Of a stretch of DNA of 64,000 nt, positions 11,948 through 25,869 are shown in pieces. Where the stretch lies: contig JAKAHR010000005.1 of assembly GCA_021825365.1 (NCBI GenBank), forward strand, positions 62,001 to 126,000, read 5' to 3'. Source of the DNA: Nitrospirota bacterium. GTDB taxonomy: Bacteria; Nitrospirota; Thermodesulfovibrionia; Thermodesulfovibrionales; UBA6898. Position 1 is the first letter of the stretch, and each line of letters starts with the position of its first letter. A program made the translations under genes and the position numbers. The notes beneath the pieces are model-generated. The model had not been told where the DNA came from and did no database searches. It was given only the letters and a program-made list of their open reading frames with translations.

Positions 11948-12964
11948 ATGACTTCTTCGAGAAGCGTCCTCTTTTTTACGATCACCCTGACCCTTGCCGT
12001 AGCGGTTTCACTGTCTCTCGCCGGATGCGAGACGCTCAAGACATCGAAGCCGATCTTGCCGCTGAAGGAGTATGAACGGATGATCGCCGGCCGGCTGGAC
12101 GCGAATTACGTCGGCACGGCGACCTGCCTGGCCGCCTGTCACTACCACGACAAGATCAAACGGGACTTTGATGCCAGCACCATGGGCTCCCAGCTTTCGA
12201 AGAAGTCCGGCCTTCCGAATGTCGATTGCGAGTCGTGCCACGGGCCGGGGAGCCTGGCCGTCCAGGACCTCACACCGGAGAAGGTCGAAGAAGACGCCAA
12301 GGCGGGAAAGCTGACAGCGTGCGATTATAAAACCCTTATCGATATCAGGAACCTGCCTGCGCAGGCGCAGTCTCTCATCTGCCTGAAGTGCCACACCGGC
12401 AACGCCACGTTCAATCTGCACAACTGGAATGCCAGTTCACATGCGGTCAGCGATGTCTCCTGCTCAGACTGCCATAAGGTGCATGTGGGGCCTGACCTGA
12501 AGGTCAAACCCCGCGACATCGGCAGGATGTGCGAGAGGTGCCACCAGGATGTGCAGGCATCCTTTGCCCTGCCGAGCCACCACCCGCTTCCTGAAAACAG
12601 GGTATTCTGCAACGACTGCCACGACGCCCACGGTGCCCTCGGCAACCACATGCTCAAGAGAGGGACCGTAAAGGAGACCTGTATCTTTTGTCACGCAGAA
12701 AAGTCAGGGCCTTTTGTCTTCGAACACGCCGAGACGATGGAGGACTGCGGCACCTGTCATTCGCCCCACGGATCGGTGAATACCCGGCTTTTGAATGTCC
12801 AGGTCCCCTTCCTCTGCCTCCAGTGTCACGCCGGGCACCGCACCTCGGCGAAGGCCTCGGCCGAGGCGAAGGGCGCGTTCTATACGAGATGCACTGACTG
12901 TCATTCTCAGATCCACGGGTCAGACCTTCCTTCTGCTGCAGGCAGAAGAAGGTTTACCCAGTAG
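11948..12964 (+). CDS. Decaheme c-type cytochrome lipoprotein, MtrA/DmsE type
   Basis: A 338-residue periplasmic electron carrier. The signal peptide ends in a lipobox (SLAGC, Cys27), so it should be lipid-anchored. Nine standard CxxCH heme sites are present: CESCH, CLKCH, CSDCH, CERCH, CNDCH, CIFCH, CGTCH, CLQCH and CTDCH. A tenth, atypical CX3CH (CLAACH, about residues 60-65) comes first in the chain. This order and the HxxH spacing match MtrA/PioA/DmsE cytochromes, which sit inside an MtrB-type barrel. The next gene encodes such a barrel 13 bases downstream. Whether electrons go out (metal or electrode reduction) or in (Fe(II) oxidation) cannot be told from sequence. No outer-surface MtrC-like cytochrome is in the window. 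Confidence 0.92.
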   Translation: MTSSRSVLFFTITLTLAVAVSLSLAGCETLKTSKPILPLKEYERMIAGRLDANYVGTATCLAACHYHDKIKRDFDASTMGSQLSKKSGLPNVDCESCHGPGSLAVQDLTPEKVEEDAKAGKLTACDYKTLIDIRNLPAQAQSLICLKCHTGNATFNLHNWNASSHAVSDVSCSDCHKVHVGPDLKVKPRDIGRMCERCHQDVQASFALPSHHPLPENRVFCNDCHDAHGALGNHMLKRGTVKETCIFCHAEKSGPFVFEHAETMEDCGTCHSPHGSVNTRLLNVQVPFLCLQCHAGHRTSAKASAEAKGAFYTRCTDCHSQIHGSDLPSAAGRRRFTQ

Positions 12965-12977
12965 GGGGGACGGGACG

Positions 12978-14957
12978 ATGAATAAGATGATCATACAAAC
13001 ACTCCTGGCGGCCTTGCTTCTGACTGCGCCTGCCTTTGGCCAGGAAAAGCCTGACCAGACTGACGCCTTGCCGTCTGATGAACTCATCCAGCAGGAACAC
13101 TACGCCTTCCCGGCCATAGCCCCCGAGGTCCGGCTCTCGGGCGGCTACCGGCTCGTCGGATCGAGCGGCTCCGGCAGGGCGGATCAGTATGAGTACCTTC
13201 ACAGCTCCCCGGTATTCGGCGGCGAGGTTCGCATCTTCTCCTTTCCCCACCGGTTCCATCTGGATCTGGACTTCAGGAACAAGAAGGACTATTTCGGCGA
13301 CGCAAGTTACGCCTATGAGGACATGGTTCTCTTCAGGGGCATCAACAGGACGCTCTTTCACAATCTGGACGCTGTGCCGATCATCGACCTAAACCCCGCA
13401 ACGTCCTCACCGGCCGTTTCCGTGCGGGATACTGACACAAGGTACGGTGTCAGGTTCGGCATGAGCAACGTCTTCCTGAGGTTCAAGACCCACGACTTCC
13501 CGTTTCACGTCTACGTCGACGGCACGCTCGTCGACCGCAGCGGCACTCAGCAGCAGCGGAGTCTTCTCGGCTCGGGATATTACAACAATATCGTCCGGGA
13601 CTCCCAGTCCAGGAACATCGACATGCAGACGAAGAATGTCGTGGTCGGCATGAACAGCCACCTCGGCCCGGTCGAGGTGGACATCTCCCACGGCGAAATG
13701 CGGCATGATGTCAGCGGCGACCGGGTCCTCTTCGACACCTACGCAGCGGCGACCGGCCTTACGCCCCGTGCTGCGGGAGAATATCCCCACAATCTCCTGC
13801 CGGAATTCAAGGGGTCGTCCAACACCCTCAAACTCCATACCTCGTACACCGGCGGCATCGTCGCATCGGCGACGTTATCGAAGATAGACCGGGACAACCG
13901 CGATAGCGGCGCCCAATCCGACTACTTCGTAGGCGCCGGCGAAGTCTCCTGGATAGCATCAAACCAAATCGGCTTCTTCCTGAAGTACCGTCACAAGGAG
14001 ATCGATTTCGACGTGCCGCGGGAGGTGACGATCGCCGACAGGACCAACCCGGCCAACTCCTACACGTACTTCGTCGAAAGTCCCATTCCGTCGATGACGG
14101 ACACCGTCTCTGCGGTCGCCCGTCTCCGGCCTGCCTCCGGAGTGACGCTCCTTGCGGAATATGCCTATGAAAACGTGCGCAGGTCCGTCTCGTTCGAATG
14201 GAGCGTGCCGGCCTCGACCCATCGGAACTCCGCTTCCATATCGGCGAACCTCAGGGTCATCAAGGGCCTGAACCTCAAGGCATCCTATACGCACAGGACG
14301 ATCGAAGACCCTGCATACAACACGGACCCTAACCGTTCCGATGAGGCGAGGTTCGCCCTCACCTGGACGCCGAAGCCGCAGATCACGACGATGCTCAGTT
14401 ACACCGTTCTGAGCGAGAAGCGCACGGACATGCACTTTGTAGACGCGCCCGACGCCCGCAAGCGCGACGTCAACCGGAACGGTCTGCTCGGGAGCGTCAC
14501 CTTCCTGCCGCTGAAGGACCTTTCCGTAACGGCGAGCTATTCCTATTTCGACAACAAGGTGCGTCAGGATATCGTCTATCATGATGAAAGCGGCGCCGCG
14601 GTAGTAGATCCTTTCGTTCCGTTTAAGGACATGGCGCATGCGTACGGCCTGAGCGTCACCTATCTGCCGTGTCCATCTGCAAGCATAAGCGCCTCCGTGA
14701 GCCATACGATCGGAAGCGGGACGTTTTATCCCGCGGACCCGAATCTTACCCAGCCTGTCTCTGTAGCGCTCTTTTCCGAGACCAAGGCCCGGGAGACCGT
14801 CTATTCCGCTTCCGGAGAGTACCGCTTCAAGAACGGGTATTCGGTCGGACTGGAGTATCGGTACAGCGACTTCAGGGATGTCCTCGATAATCCCTACGAC
14901 GATCTGATCAACGGGAGGGCACATATCGTGTTGCTGACCTTCTCAAAGAAATGGTAA
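12978..14957 (+). CDS. MtrB/PioB-type decaheme-associated outer-membrane barrel
   Basis: A 659-residue protein with a signal peptide (MNKMIIQTLLAALLLTAPAFG, about 21 residues) followed by alternating amphipathic strands across the whole length. Its C-terminus is aromatic (LLTFSKKW), as expected for a barrel inserted by the Bam machine. It belongs with the MtrB/PioB family by position directly after the decaheme cytochrome and by length. Only one cysteine is seen (in LPCPSA), so the N-terminal CxxC described for Shewanella MtrB is absent. Expected role: a sheath holding the decaheme cytochrome across the outer membrane. Confidence 0.88.
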   Translation: MNKMIIQTLLAALLLTAPAFGQEKPDQTDALPSDELIQQEHYAFPAIAPEVRLSGGYRLVGSSGSGRADQYEYLHSSPVFGGEVRIFSFPHRFHLDLDFRNKKDYFGDASYAYEDMVLFRGINRTLFHNLDAVPIIDLNPATSSPAVSVRDTDTRYGVRFGMSNVFLRFKTHDFPFHVYVDGTLVDRSGTQQQRSLLGSGYYNNIVRDSQSRNIDMQTKNVVVGMNSHLGPVEVDISHGEMRHDVSGDRVLFDTYAAATGLTPRAAGEYPHNLLPEFKGSSNTLKLHTSYTGGIVASATLSKIDRDNRDSGAQSDYFVGAGEVSWIASNQIGFFLKYRHKEIDFDVPREVTIADRTNPANSYTYFVESPIPSMTDTVSAVARLRPASGVTLLAEYAYENVRRSVSFEWSVPASTHRNSASISANLRVIKGLNLKASYTHRTIEDPAYNTDPNRSDEARFALTWTPKPQITTMLSYTVLSEKRTDMHFVDAPDARKRDVNRNGLLGSVTFLPLKDLSVTASYSYFDNKVRQDIVYHDESGAAVVDPFVPFKDMAHAYGLSVTYLPCPSASISASVSHTIGSGTFYPADPNLTQPVSVALFSETKARETVYSASGEYRFKNGYSVGLEYRYSDFRDVLDNPYDDLINGRAHIVLLTFSKKW

Positions 14958-14970
14958 AGGAATAACGGCT

Positions 14971-15897
14971 ATGAAGAGGCGCAGTATTACATTCTTCCTG
15001 TTGCTTGCCTTTGTCGTCCTTGCTCCGGTGACTGCATCTGCGGCGGAGAAGACGGTCGGTGTTATCATGACCGGCAATATCCCCTATTACAAAGAAGTCC
15101 ACAAGGCCTTCACGGAGGGGCTGGCCGCCGAGGGGCTCGGCCCGGGGGCGGCAACCGTGGTGCTCCAGACGCCGTCTCCGGAAATCATGGCCTGGACGAA
15201 TGCTGCCCGGAAACTCGTCGCCGTCGGCGCTGACATCATCGTTTCGTACGGGGCTCCGGCGACTCTTGCGGTAGTCAATGAAACCTCTGACATCCCGATC
15301 GTCTTTGCAGGCGTCTTCGACCCGCAGGCCGTGGGCGTCGCCAAAGCGAATTCAACGGGCATCAGCTCGAAGGTGCCGGTGGGAAGCCTTTTGAAGAATC
15401 TCAAGAGCATCTCAAACTTTTCGAACCTCGGCGTCGTCTTCAGCGATGCGGAAAAGGATACGGTTGTACAGGCTAATGAGGTGAAACAGCTTGAAGGCAG
15501 TTTCAACTTCAAATCTGTCAGATTAAATATAAAGAAGGCGACGGATACACCGAAGATCACCAACGTCGACGCACTCTTCCTGACCACCGGATGTTCGGCG
15601 ATGCAGTGCGTGAGCAATATCCTCGGGGTGGCCCGAAAATCCAAGATCCCCACGGCCACAACCATCGGCGGCGGCGAGGCGGCGGGCATTCTCCTCACCA
15701 TCTCTGCCAGCCCGTCAGAACAGGGCAGAGAGGCGGCGAAGATGGCGGCCAAGGTGATCAGAGGGGCGAAGCCCTCTTCACTGCCCGTGCAGCATCCCAA
15801 GAAGATCGATATGACCATCAACCTCAAGGAGGCCAACGCAATGGGGTTCAAGGTCCCCTTTGACCTCTTGACTGCCGCCACGAAGGTCATCAAATGA
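14971..15897 (+). CDS. Periplasmic ABC-type substrate-binding protein (ABC_sub_bind family)
   Basis: A 308-residue secreted protein with signal peptide [24 protein letters not shown]. The mature part has the two-lobe binding fold of the TrpX/YtfQ-like ABC_sub_bind family ([23 protein letters not shown] is typical; also [10 protein letters not shown] and GGGEAAGI). Family members bind aromatic amino acids or other small organics. No permease or ATPase gene is nearby. It starts 13 bases after the barrel gene and overlaps the chemoreceptor gene by 4 bases. A ligand-presenting role for the receptor, rather than transport, is therefore inferred. Confidence 0.85.
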
Positions 15898-17969
15898 AGA
15901 AGGGGCTTAATCTTCAGAAAAAGGCAATCTATATCGCAGCCGGGATACTCTTTTTCATCCTGAGTATCAATACCGCTGTCTTGACCTACGTGGCATCCAG
16001 CAAGTTCAAGGACGCGATCTTTGCGAAGACGTCAGCCACCGGCTCCGGCCTGCAGCGCGAATTGAGCAAGGTGTTGAACCTCGGCGTTCCCGTCGAGTCC
16101 CTCGAGGGGGTGAGCGAGAAATTGAAGGACCTTACCTCAACGGACTCCGCGATAGGTTATGCCATGGTCACCGACGGCAAGGCAAAGGTCCTTTTTCATA
16201 GCGACACGAACTTTCTCGGCAAGGAATTGACCGACAAGCCGTCGCTCGCGGCCGCCTCATCAGACAAATCGCTCAGGCAGGTCACGGGCATCTTCTATGA
16301 CATCTCCTTCCCCCTGCTTACTGCTGACGGAAAGATCGCCGGTACCCTCCGCATCGGGGTCCACAAGAGCGCCATCAACGCACAGCTCTACGCCCTCCTT
16401 CTCTGGGCTCTTGTCATATCTGTCTTCTGTTTTATCCTGTCGCTGTTCCTCGTCTCCTCGTCCATCTCTCGGTTCATAGCCAAACCGATCATGGCGATGG
16501 AAAAAGCTGCGGACAGAATCGCCTCAGGAGACCTCACGTCCTCGATAGATGTCCGCGGAGAAGACGAGATCGCTTCCCTTGGCAGGGCCATCAACCGCAT
16601 GGCCTTCAACCTGAAGGACATGCTCTCGAAGATCGGCGGCATCACCAACAGCGTATCTTCGGTGACTGCCAATATCGCCGCCGCTTCACAGGGGGTCCTT
16701 TCTGCGGCGGAGATCCAGAAGAAGGCGGTCGAAGAGACCGCATCCGCCATCGAGGAGATGGACGAATCGGTCGCAAAGGTCGCCACCAGTTCCAACAGCC
16801 TCTCCGAGTCCGCCTCCGACACCTCGTCGTCCATCCTGGAACTCTCCGCCTCGATCGAAAGGATCGCCGAGAACACGAACGTCTTCAGCGAGACGGCGCA
16901 TGAAACCGCCTCTTCCATCGAGGAGATGATCTCTTCCATCAAGAACATCGCCGAGAGCATCGGAAACCTCTCGGCCTCCTCAGAGGCAATCGCCTCCTCC
17001 GTCGACCAGGTGAATGCGGCCACCAAGGACATTGAGCACCGCGCCCAGGAATCGGTCCGCCTAGCCGAAACGGTCATGGAGAACGCCTCGGACAAGGGAG
17101 TCAGCGCCGCCCGGGCCGCGACCGAGGGGATGGAGAACATCAAAACGAGCGTCGCAGCCCTCTCGGATGTCATCAACATGCTCGGTAAGCGCACCAACGA
17201 TATCGGCAAGATCCTCACCGTCATCGACGATGTCGCTGACCAGACAAACCTCCTCGCCCTCAATGCGGCAATACTGGCATCGAAGGCCGGGGAACACGGC
17301 AAGGGGTTTTCGATCGTCGCCGATGAGATCAAGAATCTCGCTGAGCGGGCGTCGGTCTCCACCAGCGAGATAGCCTCGCTGATCCGGTCGGTCCAGGATG
17401 TGACGAAGTCCAGCATCAAGATGGCCCTTGACGGCATTCAGACGGTAGAGAAGGGGATCACCCTCGTGGCCGGGGTCCACGGGGCGTTGGGCGATATCTT
17501 CGAGAGTTCGAGGGCCGCGACCGAGATGGCAAAGGCGATTCAGCGGGCCACGGCGGAAGAGTCCACGGTCATCAAGCAGATAACGAATTCCATTGAGGGG
17601 ATGTCTGAACAGACCGAAAACATCTCGCGCGCCATCCAGGAACAGAGCAAGGGAAGCAAATTCATCATCGAGGCGACCGAGAGGGTAAAGGATCTGTCGC
17701 GTCAGGTAAAGACAGCCACCGGGGAGCAGAAGGACGGAAGCAAACAGATCGCCGGGGTCATAGAAAACGTTACCCTGCAGACCTCACAGATCGCCGGGGC
17801 GATCAGCAAGCAGAAGGAAAAATCCGCCCTCATCGTCCGGTCCATGGAGAGGATCCACGACTCGACAGGGAACCTGAGCGAGTCGGCCCACGATATGAAC
17901 AAGGTGATCACGGCCCTGCAGGACGAGGCGATGAATCTCCTGAAGGAGATCCAGAAATTCAGGGTGTAG
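15894..17969 (+). CDS. Methyl-accepting chemotaxis protein
   Basis: A 691-residue transmembrane chemoreceptor. Helix about 10-31, a periplasmic sensing region about 32-168 of single-Cache size, second helix about 169-192, HAMP about 193-245, then a long helical signalling domain. The hairpin tip (about 443-490) reads [24 protein letters not shown]; the usual AAIEAARAGE is altered to [10 protein letters not shown] but the tip is intact. There is no C-terminal CheR-binding pentapeptide (it ends EIQKFRV). Start ATG overlaps the binding-protein stop (ATGA), so the two are likely made together. Confidence 0.93.
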
Positions 17970-25554: not shown

Positions 25555-25869
25555 ATGAGGATCACCGTATTACTCCTGACCATCTTTGTAGCAGTAGCAT
25601 TCGTAGGCAGCGCCCTGGCCGTTCCTCCGGGCAAGACCGTGGAATTCGCGGCCGGAGCAGCAGGCAAGGTCATCTTCGACGGCAAGGTTCACGCTGACAA
25701 GGGTCTGAAGTGCAATGACTGTCATACCAAGATCTTCCCGATGAAGAAGGGTGGGAAGTACACCATGGCAGACATGAACTCCGGCAAGAATTGCGGCATG
25801 TGCCATAACGGCGAGAAGGCCTTCGCGTCGAAGGACGCAGCGAACTGCGGTAAATGCCATAAGAAGTAG
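25555..25869 (+). CDS. Small triheme c-type cytochrome (c7-like)
   Basis: A 104-residue secreted cytochrome with signal peptide MRITVLLLTIFVAVAFVGSALA and three heme sites (CNDCH, CGMCH, CGKCH) in a Lys-rich mature domain of about 82 residues. This matches the c3/c7 family of periplasmic electron shuttles that feed outer-membrane conduits. AGGGGGTGA precedes the ATG. An in-frame reading from 25378 is rejected because it would cover the promoter and lacks a signal. It is followed by a strong terminator. A role as donor or acceptor for the decaheme conduit at 11948 is plausible but not shown. Confidence 0.92.
   Translation: MRITVLLLTIFVAVAFVGSALAVPPGKTVEFAAGAAGKVIFDGKVHADKGLKCNDCHTKIFPMKKGGKYTMADMNSGKNCGMCHNGEKAFASKDAANCGKCHKK

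Follow-up and report, generated by a model that had tools for sequence, protein, structure and literature searches.

What does it mean that the first heme site of a decaheme cytochrome has one residue more between its cysteines than the nine sites that follow it: an error in the sequence, a neutral change of spacing, or a rebuilt entry to an electron wire? The gene lies in a window of 64,000 nucleotides, i.e., the whole stretch of DNA that was analyzed, from a Nitrospirota bacterium (assembly GCA_021825365.1, contig JAKAHR010000005.1, positions 62,001 to 126,000 of the forward strand).

A decaheme cytochrome with a CX3CH first heme site

The cytochrome gene is an open frame of 338 residues that runs from an ATG at 11948 to a stop codon at 12962–12964 on the + strand (Table 1). 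By direct translation, codons 60–65 (TGC CTG GCC GCC TGT CAC, 12125–12142) give C-L-A-A-C-H, and the nine remaining sites are CXXCH, exactly as the initial annotation had read them, with the first site inside the interval 12100–12145 that it gave. The heme motifs number ten, one CX3CH (the first) and nine CXXCH, a total that holds only with CX3CH counted as a motif. Taken alone, the bare CX3CH DNA pattern says little: it matched six times in the window against 2.53 matches expected, and 5 of 100 shuffles reached six. The evidence is conservation. At the N-terminus, Cys27 of a lipobox-like LAGC probably provides a lipid tether.

The assignment to the MtrA/DmsE-type decaheme proteins, already proposed in the initial annotation, was borne out by the DmsE decaheme model TIGR03508 (247.1 bits, above the curated cut-off of 192.2), and the GSU2203 model NF041028 scored 230.6 bits, below its curated cut-off of 325. 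The best solved relative was chain A of 6r2q (sequence E 2.6e-44, profile E 1.2e-53), which is named MtrA in PMC12203936. It was also the best Foldseek match (E 8.9e-13, TM 0.52/0.64, rmsd 7.2) of an AlphaFold model that was built from 57 sequences without hemes and had a mean pLDDT of 65.6, with residues 48–56 and 67–106 below 50. The structure table labels this chain “Cystathionine beta-synthase”, apparently a mislabel; Foldseek lists the Mtr complex. Elsewhere in the window genome, one other protein matched the cytochrome at E values up to 1e-5, and it has 15 CXXCH motifs. A plasmid search gave a single distant MtrA-like match.

Table 1 Cytochrome gene, residues of interest and downstream genes, in window coordinates
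Feature	Position	Strand	Evidence or distribution
DmsE/MtrA-type decaheme c-type cytochrome, 338 aa	11948..12964	+	Open frame; TIGR03508; 6r2q_A by sequence and Foldseek
Cys27 of lipobox-like LAGC, predicted lipid anchor	12026..12028	+	Cys in 98/99 CX3CH rows and 15/15 aligned GSU2203 rows
Heme site 1, CX3CH (CLAACH), residues 60-65	12125..12142	+	Direct translation; defines the 99 CX3CH rows
H67-D68, two residues past the motif histidine (CHxHD)	12146..12151	+	99/99 CX3CH rows; His67 in 0/77 CXXCH rows
Met79, where the family conserves a His in the loop from motif 1 to motif 2	12182..12184	+	93 of 99 CX3CH rows have Met, the other 6 His
Heme sites 2-10, nine CXXCH motifs	12227..12904	+	Motif search
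Ala104, where the family conserves a His, six residues past motif 2	12257..12259	+	Ala in 99/99 CX3CH rows and L136; His in the other 76/76
Cys125, added lone cysteine in the lengthened linker from motif 2 to motif 3	12320..12322	+	99/99 CX3CH rows; among 77 CXXCH rows only L136
His158, between motifs 3 and 4	12419..12421	+	In 93 CX3CH rows with Met79; absent in 6 with His79; also in L136
MtrB-like outer-membrane porin (position and weak profile matches)	12978..14957	+	NF041027/GSU2204 102.8 bits (cut-off 350); Porin_4 below cut-off
ABC-type substrate-binding protein (PF04392)	14971..15897	+	Profile match
Methyl-accepting chemotaxis protein, sCache_3 and HAMP domains	15894..17969	+	Profile match

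The motif is conserved among relatives

In the only other genome of the genus, these codons spell CLSACH, with synonymous differences at the motif codons; over 339 codons, the two genes differ at 22 first, 8 second and 88 third codon positions. In a scan of 84,980 species genomes, CX3CH was found in 80 of 80 loci (best 80 of 107), down to 57% identity, in a set that favors close relatives since the search peptides were taken from the query and only the best loci were kept. Judged by titles and tree labels, these loci are mostly from Nitrospirota, with Desulfobulbaceae and other Desulfobacterota/“Deltaproteobacteria” besides. Close relatives thus carry CX3CH, and not the plain CXXCH against which the initial annotation had weighed its reading. 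A sequencing or assembly error at site 1, which that annotation wished to see excluded, can be put aside almost entirely, given the same-genus CLSACH with its synonymous motif-codon differences, the motif in the independent assemblies of all 80 loci (best 80 of 107) and the intact frame downstream.

The general DmsE family model is free of this query-peptide bias. Across 148 genomes of the window's phylum, 58 places exceeded its cut-off, and 56 of these were read, leaving out one fragment without an N-terminus and one composite match. Both spacings of site 1 occur in the phylum, because 27 of the 56 places read CX3CH and 29 CXXCH. For the family as a whole, part of the places in the broader listing were sampled, including 30 GSU2203-type loci, of which every second one (15) was aligned. 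Rows dropped before counting were L001 and L003 (window gene; copy of L004), L002 (15 CXXCH), L073, L145 and near-copies; L073 and L145 share the same broken frame and still read CLAACH. This left 176 family members for comparison, 99 with CX3CH and 77 with CXXCH at site 1.

The initial annotation called CX3CH rare, which may hold across the family at large but does not hold within the CX3CH clade. The motif is also on record elsewhere: it is described for ImcH and two CymA homologs (PMC6295460) and counted in surveys of Gallionellaceae and iron oxidizers (PMC10734462, PMC5566968), and a Desulfovibrionaceae survey gives both spacings in 9.6% of Geobacter heme proteins (PMC11434368). CX3CH is, in short, a recognized heme motif.

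Residues that changed with the motif

Further residues set the CX3CH rows apart (Table 1). The CHxHD pattern after motif 1 is visible even without an alignment. Among the 76 CXXCH rows other than L136, an exceptional member treated below, 12 have Asp at column 68; column 79 reads His in 71 and Met in 5, and His67, Ala104 and a non-motif cysteine in the linker between motifs 2 and 3 occur in none. From motif 1 onward, Cys125 is the sole non-motif cysteine in 93 of the 99 CX3CH rows, while five rows have two such cysteines and one has three. Two non-motif histidines near motifs 1 and 2 are conserved in the CXXCH members, and both are gone in the window protein. Because CX3CH, Met79 and Ala104 replace CXXCH and these two histidines (present in 71 and 76 of the 76 rows), the window protein is, as far as its residues tell, a variant and not a typical member of the DmsE/MtrA family.

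The changes are not all equally tied to the motif. Among the first 139 rows, L136 aside, 92 CX3CH rows had Met79 and 46 CXXCH rows had His79. A tight coupling of CX3CH to the replacement of His by Met at this column failed on 40 further places that were read to test it (37 aligned, three near-copies being removed). Because six CX3CH rows have His79 and five CXXCH rows have Met, the link between the two is loose, and within the clade Met79 is better seen as a further change, one that accompanies His158. That pairing has no exception among the 99 CX3CH rows (Met79 with His158 in 93, His79 without His158 in 6). All six proteins combining CX3CH with His79 came from the Desulfobacterota search. As a separate observation, the CXXCH members L207, L213, L218, L219 and L220 have Met both at the place of the loop histidine and at that of His179, and possibly contain His/Met hemes.

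A single clade with one nested exception

Trees were midpoint-rooted and computed on thinned sets from residue 127 onward, one with 102 of the 139 rows (column 158 included) and one with 95 of the 176 rows (column 158 excluded). On the 102-row tree, 55 CX3CH rows and L136 formed one group (100/100), and this group joined the 15 GSU2203 rows (100/98). The 95-row tree, from which residues up to 126 and column 158 had been removed, likewise placed 31 CX3CH rows and L136 in one group (100/100). The fewest changes required on the latter tree were two for the motif, one for column 104, one for column 125, four for column 79 and two for column 158. We read the two motif changes as one gain and one loss. 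Independent events are hence few, the co-occurrence within one clade amounting to this one gain and one loss. An order with CX3CH ahead of Met79 would depend on the midpoint root and on the His79 set, whose placement is weak (53/3, one long branch).

The exception, L136 (1868–2938), branches inside the CX3CH clade; its site 1 is CXXCH, and the loop that leads from motif 1 to motif 2 is shortened. It has no H67 but does have Ala104, the linker cysteine and His158, and its H67 may have been lost by a single deletion of the loop. L136 is probably a diverged paralog, because its genome also carries a CX3CH copy (L122); with L136 as the query, no further protein in the 198 genomes of the phylum that were searched exceeded 57% identity to it. 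Because CX3CH is kept along the whole branch with this single exception, together with other changes near the same heme, the site has the look of a genuine redesign, not of an error in the sequence.

Gene neighborhood

A porin homolog lies directly downstream of the cytochrome gene, on the same strand, in all 77 loci with room for it (best 80 of 107 loci). Under the same selection of loci, same-strand homologs of the substrate-binding protein occur downstream in 59 of the 66 loci that leave room for one, and those of the chemotaxis receptor in 26 of 62. This arrangement (12978–17969), with a binding protein and frequently a chemotaxis receptor after the cytochrome–porin pair, suggests that sensing or taxis may be connected with the conduit. 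Further along, at 25711–25860, the window encodes a small triheme c7-like cytochrome with three CXXCH motifs.

A proposed rebuilding of the periplasmic end

Our preferred reading, to which we assign a probability of about 0.72, is that the window protein is an outer-membrane wire of ten hemes in which the heme site facing the periplasm was rebuilt once, along with its ligands. From homology and gene order, the protein would belong to an outer-membrane conduit of the MtrAB type, as its periplasmic decaheme electron wire inside a porin sheath, and the CX3CH at site 1 would still bind heme c, for ten hemes in all. The corresponding heme in MtrA faces the periplasm. In the ancestor of the clade, the periplasmic end would have been remodeled in a single episode, in which the motif was extended by one residue, a His-Asp pair became fixed two residues past the motif histidine, the histidine after motif 2 was lost, and the linker that joins motifs 2 and 3, now longer, gained a lone cysteine. 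Later, in most members, the loop histidine would have given way to Met79 while His158 arose in the stretch from motif 3 to motif 4. Hemes 1 and 2 would acquire different sixth ligands in this process, which would shift the potentials of both hemes and the docking face for periplasmic partners. The comparison itself shows conservation, the grouping on the tree and the co-occurrence of the residues; that heme is attached, which residues act as ligands, the potentials and the direction of electron flow we infer. A changed potential of the entry heme had been suggested from the motif spacing, in an account that missed the package of H67-D68, the loss of a conserved histidine, the lone Cys125, and Met79 with His158. 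On altered ligation, this package is more informative than the spacing.

The most economical assignment would leave all hemes bis-His, with H67 replacing the lost histidine and H158 the loop histidine. Ten non-motif histidines are conserved in the clade, namely H67, H158 or H79, and those at 165, 179, 212, 228, 260, 274, 297 and 323 (His179 and His228 being replaced in 5 and 7 of the 99 CX3CH rows), which would be enough for ten bis-His hemes; which of the family histidines are axial we judge from conservation and alignments. All 20 hemes of the Mtr complex are described as bis-His, with heme A1 of MtrA ~20 Å inside the periplasm (PMC7198977). A histidine only two residues past a motif ligand could, by analogy, serve a neighboring heme, as in cytochrome c3, for which consecutive axial ligands of two hemes are described (PMC10454114).

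The alternative to an all-bis-His wire would be an axial Cys125 thiolate or Met79. In its more specific form, which we regard as a tentative possibility, a His/Cys-ligated heme would sit at the periplasmic entry, the Cys125 thiolate replacing the histidine lost after motif 2 while CX3CH and H67 shape the pocket. Cys125 is favored as a sixth ligand because its distribution exactly matches the loss of His at column 104 (99 of 99 CX3CH rows and L136, against none of the other 76). It would also have no partner for an internal disulfide within the heme region, because it is the only non-motif cysteine there in 93 of 99 rows; the porins have no conserved cysteine, and 19 of 70 full-length porin frames have none at all. 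Were this correct, the thiolate heme could act as a low-potential gate or as a sulfur-responsive entry site. We know of no other MtrA-type wire with a thiolate-ligated heme.

The same cysteine could be taken as a sign that site 1 is free of heme, in a nine-heme wire whose periplasmic mouth would hold a different metal site or a thiol redox site made up of C60, C64, H65, H67, C125 and M79. Cys125 is present in 99 of 99 rows and lone in 93 of them, and these thiol- and histidine-rich residues at the periplasmic end changed together, all of which would suit such a site. We nonetheless consider it unlikely, as every one of the 99 rows keeps the two cysteines and the histidine of the motif, the same site in the nested L136 is a canonical CXXCH, as fits a heme site throughout, and published surveys and descriptions of ImcH count CX3CH as a heme motif. 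The invariant motif residues agree with the original expectation that heme 1 is likely bound.

It also seems doubtful that CX3CH is neutral drift in spacing, with ordinary bis-His ligation and no functional effect. Other spacings do work in nature, e.g., the CXXXXCH that occurs twice in cytochrome c3 (PMC10454114), but CX3CH is found in all close relatives together with H67, D68, Ala104 and Cys125 in 99 of 99 rows.

Altered maturation of the site was another suggestion of the initial annotation, and the ResB and CcsA-type genes found in the genome gave nothing that ties CX3CH to it. These genes sit side by side on two contigs, C1 and C21. On C13 a third CcsA-type gene lies close to a weaker ResB match, and two further CcsA-type matches are on C48 and C5. 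Maturation is hence probably by System II, with more than one synthase. A dedicated heme synthase for CX3CH, like those for CX15CH and CXXCK, would be compatible with these two full pairs and the weaker third place, and with PMC3601427, which describes proteins dedicated to CXXCK and to CX15CH as well as defective attachment by System I at altered spacing. We rate it as very improbable: contig C11, which holds the window, has no ResB or CcsA-type match, and several synthases may simply reflect many cytochromes.

Relation to known cytochromes

The proposed ten-heme wire can be set against several known systems. MtrA of Shewanella MtrCAB (6r2q A) is likewise decaheme and aligns along motifs 1–10, and here too a porin gene adjoins; unlike the window protein, it has CXXCH at site 1 and the loop histidine, and in the alignments it has no counterpart of H67, Cys125 or His158. 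The GSU2203 family (NF041028) is the nearest group on the midpoint-rooted tree and shares Cys27 in its 15 aligned rows, but it has CXXCH at site 1 in 30 of 30 loci read and keeps both histidines in the 15 aligned rows. The ImcH inner-membrane cytochromes share the CX3CH motif, whereas PMC6295460 describes them as proposed quinol oxidases, most with three transmembrane motifs and 5–9 CX2CH motifs.

PioA of Rhodopseudomonas palustris is another MtrA-type decaheme protein, with His/Met heme ligation according to a title cited in PMC10304953, and may serve as a precedent for hemes other than bis-His in the MtrA family. Compared by its description, PioA differs in having ten CXXCH sites and an N-terminal region of ~200 residues (PMC6831781). 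Hemes A1–A5 of MtrA are described as superposed by NrfB hemes and A2–A5 by STC hemes (PMC7198977). NrfB and STC are smaller proteins, with CXXCH in the aligned stretches of NrfB and in STC (PMC10454114); the aligned stretch of NrfB has histidines at similar places near motifs 1 and 2, as do the CXXCH members of the family.

A term search of the main text of the Mtr-evolution paper PMC8805035 gave no CX3CH, CXXXCH or Nitrospir-, and that of the Desulfobacterota paper PMC12133095 no CX3CH or Nitrospir-. In the literature searched, which consisted of titles and abstract openings, with most subscription journals outside it, we found no report of the CX3CH clade. The protein is of a known kind, i.e., MtrA-type, in a variant clade for which that literature gave no description.

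For annotation, heme-counting scripts that consider only CXXCH will call proteins of this clade nine-heme. For the study of conduits, the clade is a natural experiment, in which a family that is all bis-His in Shewanella changed the surroundings of its entry heme once and kept the residue package in members from both Nitrospirota and Desulfobacterota. Set beside a GSU2203-type protein, a member of the clade would reveal how the potential, direction and partner choice of an outer-membrane wire depend on the ligation of its entry heme, and L136 and the six His79 members offer intermediate states.

As a general cytochrome module, the motif with a close histidine can be rejected for this genome. 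A pattern search for CX3CH with His-Asp/Asn shortly after it gave three places: the window gene and two frames that lack CXXCH, one coding for a ferredoxin-like protein and the other short. In loci L101, L103 and L124, an adjoining multiheme cytochrome has one CX3CH with a close histidine (CAASCHSYHD, CAASCHNYHN and CYASCHDYHN).
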